From: Thermoflexia bacterium | Lineage (GTDB): Bacteria; Chloroflexota; Anaerolineae; B4-G1 | Direction of reading: 5' to 3' | Length of the DNA stretch: 45,756 nt | Assembly (NCBI GenBank): GCA_011192155.1 | Contig: DUEK01000018.1 | Span: 1-45,756, forward strand | Shown here: piece after piece, positions 18,594-21,809 of the stretch | How the letters are laid out: every line of letters starts with the position of its first letter | How positions within the stretch are numbered: position 1 is the stretch's first letter | Made by a program: the position numbers and the translations under genes | Notes under the pieces: model-generated | Database searches by the model: none | Told to the model about the DNA's origin: nothing | Seen by the model: only the letters and a program-made list of their open reading frames with translations

Positions 18594-21500
18594 ATGATTT
18601 TGCAAGGTAAGCTCCACGCAGAAACACCAATCTACAGGGGCAACGCGCGCAAGACCCTCTTCACCAGAGATGGAGACGGCAAACATCGTCTGGTCTCCCT
18701 GGCGGGCGAGATTTCAGGGACGGCTCAGTCATTGATGGACGCCTTTATCGGCCAATCGCGCAACGGTAAAAACATTGGCCTGCTCGACCAACTGTGGCTG
18801 CGGCTCTACGACTTGCCAATGCCCAAAGACCTCATCGCCAGAGTGGACTGCCAATTGCAGGAAGAAAGCTACCCGCCCGATCACCTCTTTGATATGCGCA
18901 TGGGCATCAAGCTGGACGAGGACCGTTGGGCCGCGATAGCGAACGCCAATTACAAGATGGAGACCATCTTTCGCAACTCGGTCTTTGGTATCTCCCTCGC
19001 CGTAGATGATTCAGTCCTGGGGAAGGGACAGAACAGAGACCGGCTATATTACCTCCTGCGCGAACTGCAAGCGGGGCGGTTTTGGTTCGGAGCCGGCAAG
19101 AGCAAGGGGCTAGGGCGCGTCCGCCTCGAAATGGACCTGCCGTTTTCTCCCTCCAACAAAATCCCCGCCCTAAACCCCCACGCTAATCACCTTCAACTAT
19201 CTCTGACCTTTGACGCCACGAACCCCGTCCTGGTCGGTTGGAACTGGGGCAAGGTGGACCCGGCTGTGCCCTCTTTCGCCGCCATCGAGGGCCGCGTGCT
19301 GGTGGGAGCGATGCGCGATCTGCCGGACCCCATCCGCGAGCGGCTAGAGATGGGATTGGCCGGGCCGATTCTCAACCCAGAAGATTGGAAGCGCAAATTC
19401 GCCCAGTATCTTCCCAGAGTCATCGCCATCTGGCTACGGGAACGCTCCATCGGGGAAACTGACGTTTGGACTCTACCGGCTGCGGCGTTGAAGAAATTGG
19501 GCAAGGGTAAGTGGGGGCTTTCCAAAAAAATACTCCAGCGAGTCGAGCCTCTGGTCGGGCAATCTTTCCCCAGCCAAGAGGCGGCCAAGGCCGCTTGCGA
19601 GAAGGCGCTCGAAGACAAGGCCAACATGGCCGGCCGCATCGTCAAAGCCATGAAACGGGAACGTCGCAAGAGCGAAGAACTCGACACCGCTGCCTGGCGC
19701 GAGATCGCCGAGGGGTTGGGGCTGGACATCGCCCTGGAGGAGAGCCTGGCAAAGCGGGTCGGTAGCGAAGAGTCCCTGGTCAAGATACTGACCTCGGCGT
19801 GTGAAAAGATACTCCCCCAACTCTACCAGCAGGTGGATCAACAGGTCAACTTGATTCAGAGCGATGCCTGGGTAGACGCCGAGATCAAGAACCGCACGGA
19901 ACACTTGCTGATTAAAAAGATGTTGCTCCAGGGAGAGATTGACGAGCGTCAGTGGGGCAAAACTGACCAGGTCCCAGAGGGCGTCAGCCCGGCGACGTGG
20001 CGCGAATTTGTCAACGATCACCGGCGGGTGAGATACCGCCACATGAAACATCCTCGGAACTTGGGCAAGAGCATCACCAACGACGAGAACATGATCGCCT
20101 TCCTGGAAGGGCATCGCGACCGCGCCCGCCAGGAGCTATCTCAGCCGTACCACGTCGATTTCCGCGCCGGCGGGCCATCCAAGCGAGAAGTCTCCCGCAA
20201 GTACGGCAAGCCCTACGACACCGTCTTTATGCGTATGCTGTCCTGGGCGCCGTCCTCACGCGAGCAAGGCGCGTGGGAGATATATATCCCAGGCAGCACG
20301 ATCAAGGGCGCCTTCAGAAAACGAGCCTCCCAGGTGCTAAAAACTCTGTGGGGTGAATCTCGCCGGACGAACGATGTGTTGGACACTCTCTTTGGCGCTC
20401 AGGGACAGCGCGGCCTGGTCTTTTTCTCCGACGCTTACCTCACCGACCCGCACGATCCAGAACGAGCCTGGTGCTCTATGGACGGGGTAAAGATGAATCC
20501 CAAGACAGGCTGCCCGGTGGAGGAGGCCAAGCGCGACTATCTCTTTGCTTACGGCAGTCGCCTCGCTTTCCGGCTACGTATAGACCTCATGGACGTTGAT
20601 GAGCGGGACACAGAAGCGCTCTCCGTGTTCCTGCACATGCTCCAGGACTTTCAGCGGGGCGATATCACCCTGGGCGGCGAAAAGACCAGCGGGTTTGGCT
20701 GGGTCGAGGCGACCATAGCCCAACTTGTCTGGTTAACGGCGTCCCCCGCCGGGGTAGGAGAGAGATTGTTCGGGAAACAATCGTTGAGCCAGGACGGTAT
20801 ATGGCAAAAGCTGGAACTGGAAGGGCAAGCGGCCGCTGGCGCGCTGCAAGCCAATCCACTCGCCCTCGAGCAGAAACAGTCTCCGTCAACCCCGCCGCGC
20901 GCCCGAGCCGGCTTTATCTCCCATCGAGCGTTTGGCGGCTATTGCGGTATGTTGGAGGTAGAGGCAGAACCGCTGACGCCCATCCACATACGCGAGAGCG
21001 GCGAACCGTCCCATAGAACCACCCTGGAAGGCGGCCCCGTCAACGGCTGGGATTTCTTCGCTATGGCGCCTCCCGAGGCCGCGCAACGTGGGGACGACAA
21101 AGTCTACGCGCTCCCCAGCCAGAGCATCAAGGGTATGTTGCGCCATCTCTACACCATCGCCAGCGATTCTCGAGAGCACAGCGCCGACATCGCCCGCTTG
21201 AACCCGGTGGACAGTCTGTTCGGTTGGGTGGGACAGGGACCTGATCAGGCTATTATGGGGCGCTTGTCCTTCACCTTTGGTCTGTTCGACGAACCCCAGT
21301 TGGCCTGGTTCAAAGTGCCCTACCCTTACGGCGAATGGCGCTACGCCGGCGATCAGTGGAAGCAAGCGGCGGATAGCTCTGCCGCCAAGATGCTCGTCAG
21401 CAAAACCTGGCGCGTCTTTCCTCACGCTCCACTGGCCCCAATCGTCAAACAGTTGGCCGGTTTCCAACCCGATACCTTCCAGGCCCGTTACTTTAGGGCC

Positions 21501-21809
21501 ATCATGCCCGGCTCGCGCGCCCGCTTCACAATTCGTTTCTGGAACCTGGAAAAAGAGGAATTGCAAAGGTTGATGTGGTGTGTGGCGCTGGAACCGGGAC
21601 TCGGCCACAAAATGGGCAACAACCGTTACCTCGGCTTTGGCAGCCTGCGCCTGCGAGTTCTGCCGGGCAGTTACCTGATTGACTGGGCCAAGCGGTACGC
21701 CGGAGGACAAAGTTGGCAGTTGCCCATCCAGGTTGACGAGTGGATTGAGACCGGCGCGATCCAGCATCACACAGCCTTGCGCAAGGCACTGAATGTTAAG
21801 CAGCTTTGA
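18594..21809 (+). CDS. Multi-domain RAMP (Cas7-like) fusion protein, 1071 aa
   Basis: Three glycine-rich RAMP loops: aa ~161-180 GRFWFGAGKSKGLGRVRLEM, aa ~692-706 TLGGEKTSGFGWVEA, aa ~1002-1020 GLGHKMGNNRYLGFGSLRL. Two IPGSxxKG-type motifs: YIPGSTIKGAFRKRA and ALPSQSIKGMLRHLY. LFG...G.l.fsDa-type segment: LDTLFGAQGQRGLVFFSDAYL. Confidence 0.85.
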   Translation: MILQGKLHAETPIYRGNARKTLFTRDGDGKHRLVSLAGEISGTAQSLMDAFIGQSRNGKNIGLLDQLWLRLYDLPMPKDLIARVDCQLQEESYPPDHLFDMRMGIKLDEDRWAAIANANYKMETIFRNSVFGISLAVDDSVLGKGQNRDRLYYLLRELQAGRFWFGAGKSKGLGRVRLEMDLPFSPSNKIPALNPHANHLQLSLTFDATNPVLVGWNWGKVDPAVPSFAAIEGRVLVGAMRDLPDPIRERLEMGLAGPILNPEDWKRKFAQYLPRVIAIWLRERSIGETDVWTLPAAALKKLGKGKWGLSKKILQRVEPLVGQSFPSQEAAKAACEKALEDKANMAGRIVKAMKRERRKSEELDTAAWREIAEGLGLDIALEESLAKRVGSEESLVKILTSACEKILPQLYQQVDQQVNLIQSDAWVDAEIKNRTEHLLIKKMLLQGEIDERQWGKTDQVPEGVSPATWREFVNDHRRVRYRHMKHPRNLGKSITNDENMIAFLEGHRDRARQELSQPYHVDFRAGGPSKREVSRKYGKPYDTVFMRMLSWAPSSREQGAWEIYIPGSTIKGAFRKRASQVLKTLWGESRRTNDVLDTLFGAQGQRGLVFFSDAYLTDPHDPERAWCSMDGVKMNPKTGCPVEEAKRDYLFAYGSRLAFRLRIDLMDVDERDTEALSVFLHMLQDFQRGDITLGGEKTSGFGWVEATIAQLVWLTASPAGVGERLFGKQSLSQDGIWQKLELEGQAAAGALQANPLALEQKQSPSTPPRARAGFISHRAFGGYCGMLEVEAEPLTPIHIRESGEPSHRTTLEGGPVNGWDFFAMAPPEAAQRGDDKVYALPSQSIKGMLRHLYTIASDSREHSADIARLNPVDSLFGWVGQGPDQAIMGRLSFTFGLFDEPQLAWFKVPYPYGEWRYAGDQWKQAADSSAAKMLVSKTWRVFPHAPLAPIVKQLAGFQPDTFQARYFRAIMPGSRARFTIRFWNLEKEELQRLMWCVALEPGLGHKMGNNRYLGFGSLRLRVLPGSYLIDWAKRYAGGQSWQLPIQVDEWIETGAIQHHTALRKALNVKQL

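Follow-up and report, generated by a model that had tools for sequence, protein, structure and literature searches.

Analysis of a 45,756-nucleotide stretch of contig DUEK01000018.1 from a Thermoflexia bacterium (the window) revealed that the open reading frame at 18594-21809 (+), which runs intact from ATG to TGA, encodes a protein of 1071 aa that, judged by its sequence, is an ordinary full-length member of the published family Cas7-11i, the three-Cas7 fused effector of subtype III-I. Together with the adjacent cas10i and cas6i genes, it very probably forms a III-I effector operon whose product would be a single-chain, crRNA-guided RNA cutter, with Cas10i as its cap, Cas6i as the guide-trimming enzyme and guides supplied in trans. 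Membership of the family follows directly from the NCBIfam model NF049957 (Cas_III-I_gRAMP), which matches residues 1-1071 with 1906 bits against a cut-off of 800. The model of the III-E effector (NF041225) yields 46.3 bits against a cut-off of 700 and aligns to one C-terminal stretch only, TIGR03986 scores 95, below its cut-off of 161, and none of the PADLOC 2023 models matches the protein over its full length.

The account of subtype III-I comes from Makarova et al. 2025, where the organism modelled is Desulfonema magnum (PMC12669027). The sections of that report drawn upon here describe a single-chain effector in which a Cas11 domain is fused to three Cas7 domains, accompanied by a strongly diverged Cas10, and trace its origin to a variant of III-D, separately from that of Cas7-11e; the system is stated to occur in more than 160 genomes, chiefly of Thermodesulfobacteriota and Chloroflexota, and RNA cleavage by III-I is presented in those sections as a prediction (PMC12669027). 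Our literature search found no biochemistry on III-I. The D. magnum locus among our relatives (L053), which we equated with WP_207677910 of the consulted sections of PMC12669027 by organism and III-I match, has three genes matching NF049957, NF049958 and NF049959, and its effector is collinear with, and 64% identical to, the protein of the window. The original prediction had implied a novel effector, and this implication gives way to a one-to-one match with a fused effector that is already described. Indeed, an undescribed single-chain gRAMP protein outside every named subtype would fit the very low III-E score and the PADLOC result, yet the III-I model is matched at full length and at more than twice its cut-off, both III-I partner genes are present, and the D. 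magnum protein aligns throughout; this reading, to which we assign a vanishingly small probability, is refuted by the presence of a III-I operon together with the match to NF049957.

The proposal that one 1071-aa chain carries at least three RAMP domains is borne out by Pfam and by structure prediction. The Pfam RAMPs model matches the protein at 2.6e-23 in two stretches (the best at residues 563-705), and a full-length AlphaFold2 (AF2) model built from 91 sequences, of moderate confidence (mean pLDDT 73, pTM 0.64), displays three recognisable ferredoxin-like beta-alpha-beta-beta-alpha-beta units. The first (~aa 1-180; 18594..19133, +) follows the order E2-9, H40-52, E81-88, E130-137, H147-160, E175-180 and contains a glycine loop at 161-178. 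The second (~aa 516-715; 20139..20738, +) contains IPGSTIKG at 565-572 and a glycine loop at 693-706, and the third (~aa 783-1022; 20940..21659, +) contains LPSQSIKG at 840-847 and a glycine loop at 1002-1020, all of these motifs lying where they had been placed from the sequence. Profile comparison also matched the third unit to the Cas7 unit at the C-terminus of Cas7-11e (7zol). The RAMP motifs are kept across 70 full-length relatives and hence are not due to chance. In a Foldseek search against the PDB, the best 32 matches were all Cas7-11e/gRAMP structures, followed by III-D Cas7-2x; the TM-scores of ~0.3 are expected, since a flexible multi-domain model was compared as a whole. No significant match was obtained in a search of a viral fold library. 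The initial view of a protein that follows the single-chain logic of Cas7-11, is shorter and is not a III-E orthologue is correct.

Each Cas7 unit bears one conserved aspartate site ahead of its PGSSLKG-like motif. Among the 70 full-length proteins, D26 is conserved in 97%, D28 in 99%, D542 in 100% (70/70) and D820 in 99%, so that the acidic residues which the original prediction had suggested examining are retained at a level of at least 97%. Several of the loops carrying them score below pLDDT 50 in the AF2 model. Aspartates in each Cas7 are likewise stated for III-I in the consulted sections of the published description (PMC12669027), and D26/D28, D542 and D820 agree with this. Cleavage of the target RNA would most likely take place near these residues.

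Between the first and second units lies the segment at aa 198-515 (19185..20138, +). In the full-length model, residues 198-208 form a strand, predicted with good confidence, which is followed by a six-residue helix and then by an all-helical region (~aa 245-515), published as a putative Cas11 domain in the consulted sections of PMC12669027; compared with the PDB by Foldseek, the segment gave no significant match, and the Cas11 identity was not recovered. The same segment had been thought to hold, at aa ~198-245, the N-terminal half of a further, degenerate RAMP, which would make this a four-RAMP protein. The strings on which this idea was based are indeed present at 199-215 and 231-244 (NPVLVG...IEGRVLVGAMRD) and superficially resemble the N-terminal half of a RAMP, and the well-predicted strand might be taken in the same sense. 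When residues 190-520 were folded alone, however, the model (mean pLDDT 85) was helical, lost the strand at 198-208, showed no RAMP fold and had no significant match, RAMP or other, in the PDB. HHalign found no similarity between the segment and the other RAMP units, a result that is weak when taken alone owing to shallow profiles (~2.7 effective sequences), and the published account counts three Cas7 domains alongside a single Cas11 domain (PMC12669027, sections consulted). Descent of aa 198-245 from a fourth Cas7 unit is thus very unlikely and is rejected on the combined results of the separate fold, Foldseek and HHalign; the likeliest reading of the model is that strand 198-208 completes the sheet of a neighbouring Cas7 unit.

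The effector gene is followed directly by cas10i (21793..22671, +), which encodes a Cas10 remnant of 292 aa matched over its full length by NF049958 (Cas10i; 461 bits, cut-off 175). The cysteines of its CxxC..CxxC zinc ribbon (C48, C51, C63 and C66) are invariant, a motif check found neither GGDD nor HD in the protein, and no PDB relative was detectable by sequence. The third gene, cas6i (22646..23650, +), encodes a predicted pre-crRNA endoribonuclease of 334 aa with the glycine-rich loop of Cas6 at its C-terminus. NF049959 (Cas6i; 301 bits, cut-off 160) matches this protein from the N-terminus to the middle, residues 220-330 match Pfam PF10040 slightly under its cut-off, and PADLOC reports a Cas6 match at 5.5e-11. 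The three genes form an operon with overlaps of 17 bases (cas7-11i/cas10i) and 26 bases (cas10i/cas6i), and the order cas7-11i, cas10i, cas6i was found in nearly all relatives with a contig of sufficient length.

Upstream of the operon, a promoter-like element, TTGACC-N17-TACAAT (18513..18541, +), was read from the sequence as a consensus match, and several relatives from Chloroflexota carry a similar TTGAC...TATACT/TACAAT at about the same distance from cas7-11i. A ribosome-binding site, AAGGAGGTTGTC (18582..18593, +), was likewise read directly 5' of the start codon, a position at which most of the relatives compared have a GGAGG-type site. The intergenic region further upstream contains an inverted repeat whose 23-base arms enclose a loop of 17 bases (18244-18306).

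Several other features of the window were recorded. A single ORF at 6-3104 combines serine hydroxymethyltransferase (SHMT) and aminomethyltransferase (GCV_T) domains; a 48-base tandem repeat of 4.7 copies (4806-5031) lies within an ORF with S1 RNA-binding domains; and a 149-base direct repeat, 98% identical (11145-11293 and 14613-14761), surrounds genes for an M50 peptidase, an rmlC-like protein and miaB. Tandem FemAB-family genes (24327-25598 and 25457-26653) overlap by 142 bases when called from the first start codon, and two very long repetitive ORFs (30554-39550 and 39686-45409, -; 2998 and 1907 aa) contain many degenerate direct repeats.

Searching more widely, we scored 8000 candidates and obtained 472 homologues at E <= 1e-10, and 16 of 99 related genomes contain the Cas7-11i family above its cut-off. 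A scan of GTDB species genomes yielded 78 loci, most of them in Chloroflexota and Desulfobacterota and a small number in KSB1, Poribacteria and other groups; the identity of the effector across phyla is 49-75%. TRF, a repeat search and a custom finder detected no CRISPR array in the window or on the 78 related stretches (79 stretches and 1.15 Mb with the window included), although the custom finder did pick up real arrays in control stretches; the repeats that were found are tandem or dispersed only and lack the pattern of repeats separated by unique spacers. This negative result applies to stretches of which 25 of 79 extend at least 5 kb on both sides of the operon, many contigs being short and assemblies often breaking at arrays. 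Rfam returned no match in the window or in the csm contig, and the region upstream of the operon shows no conserved guide-like RNA beyond the promoter-like element and ribosome-binding site described above. No convincing conserved accessory gene was found within 8 kb, the largest cluster of neighbours occurring at 11 of 79 loci in varying positions.

Outside the window, a search of the source genome for a TGAAAC-spaced pattern, which arrays with other repeats would escape, found no arrays, and cas1 was not detected in this genome, which is 83% complete. The source genome does possess a separate III-A csm operon, complete and including a Cas6 of its own (contig C170), and clear CRISPR arrays are present elsewhere in four other III-I genomes (G002, G009, G036 and G078). 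An association of III-I with cas1 was also considered, and no link emerged (10 of 16 III-I genomes versus 44 of 83 without III-I; Fisher p = 0.59). Two genes on the csm contig deserve a remark of their own: on stretch L120 (source genome G000), the III-A Csm5 encoded at 6936-8309 has a C-terminal cold-shock (CspA-like) domain, and the product of the csm operon gene at 979-1857, possibly a ligand-sensing regulator, combines an N-terminal match to Csx14 with C-terminal matches to sigma-70/LuxR-type helix-turn-helix models.

Because no array or cas1 was found near the operon, the III-I operon is probably supplied with crRNAs in trans, by other arrays, and this is the simplest reading because four III-I genomes have arrays elsewhere and the source genome has a III-A csm operon. 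In the main text of PMC12669027, as far as it was consulted, no statement on III-I arrays was found. One may ask whether Cas7-11i is instead a guide-independent or non-CRISPR-guided RNA-binding machine, working with chromosomal non-array RNA or in host RNA regulation. The lack of an array on any of the 79 stretches, the failure to detect cas1 in the source genome, the conservation of the effector across phyla and the lack of a conserved neighbour would all suit such a role, but most III-I loci retain a dedicated Cas6i despite having no recognisable array on these stretches, no conserved non-coding element is seen upstream, the short contigs limit what the missing arrays can tell, four III-I genomes have arrays elsewhere, and the source genome has the csm operon with its own Cas6. 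We consider this role improbable, and give equally little credence to its extension to the whole subtype, namely that all III-I systems lack both an array and adaptation genes of their own and are guided by chromosomal RNA from outside CRISPR arrays and not by borrowed crRNAs. The missing cis array on the 79 stretches is nevertheless a point worth following, as it bears on the guide source of the entire subtype.

With crRNAs supplied in trans by other arrays, the system would operate as follows. The three Cas7 units and the helical (putative Cas11) segment would, in one chain, stand in for the multi-subunit backbone of type III complexes; pre-crRNA would be trimmed by Cas6i, a task that falls in III-E to an N-terminal Cas7 unit that Cas7-11i lacks; the crRNA would be held along the three Cas7 units, base-paired to invading RNA; and the target would be cut beside the acidic loop residues D26/D28, D542 and D820. 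Cas10i would cap the complex and, since it is without the GGDD catalytic motif, is predicted to be unable to synthesise cyclic oligoadenylate.

The locus on DUEK01000018.1 thus adds one further Cas7-11i orthologue, a compact single-chain candidate for RNA targeting. Its closest counterpart, the Cas7-11i of D. magnum, has the same length, three Cas7 units with a helical segment, the conserved aspartate sites and the same downstream Cas10i and Cas6i, and shares the Chloroflexota host range; the genes overlap here, whereas those of D. magnum are separated by gaps of a few hundred bases, which is no difference of substance. Cas7-11e/gRAMP (7zol, 8d9f, 7xsq), the best fold match in the PDB, is likewise a single-chain Cas7 fusion, and its C-terminal Cas7 unit can be aligned by sequence with that of Cas7-11i. 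However, it contains four Cas7 units in 1600-1800 aa, as opposed to the three predicted here in 1071 aa, it has an insertion in its last Cas7, its first unit has a role in pre-crRNA processing (PMC9629832), and III-E is without a cas10 gene, whereas here cas10i is the next gene. The III-D proteins Cas7-2x and the TIGR03986 RAMP protein (8s9t chains D and E) resemble Cas7 units 2 and 3 in sequence and fold, but form part of a multi-subunit complex, unlike the single chain of Cas7-11i. Hence, Cas7-11i represents a second, already published, case in which a multi-subunit type III effector has collapsed into one protein.
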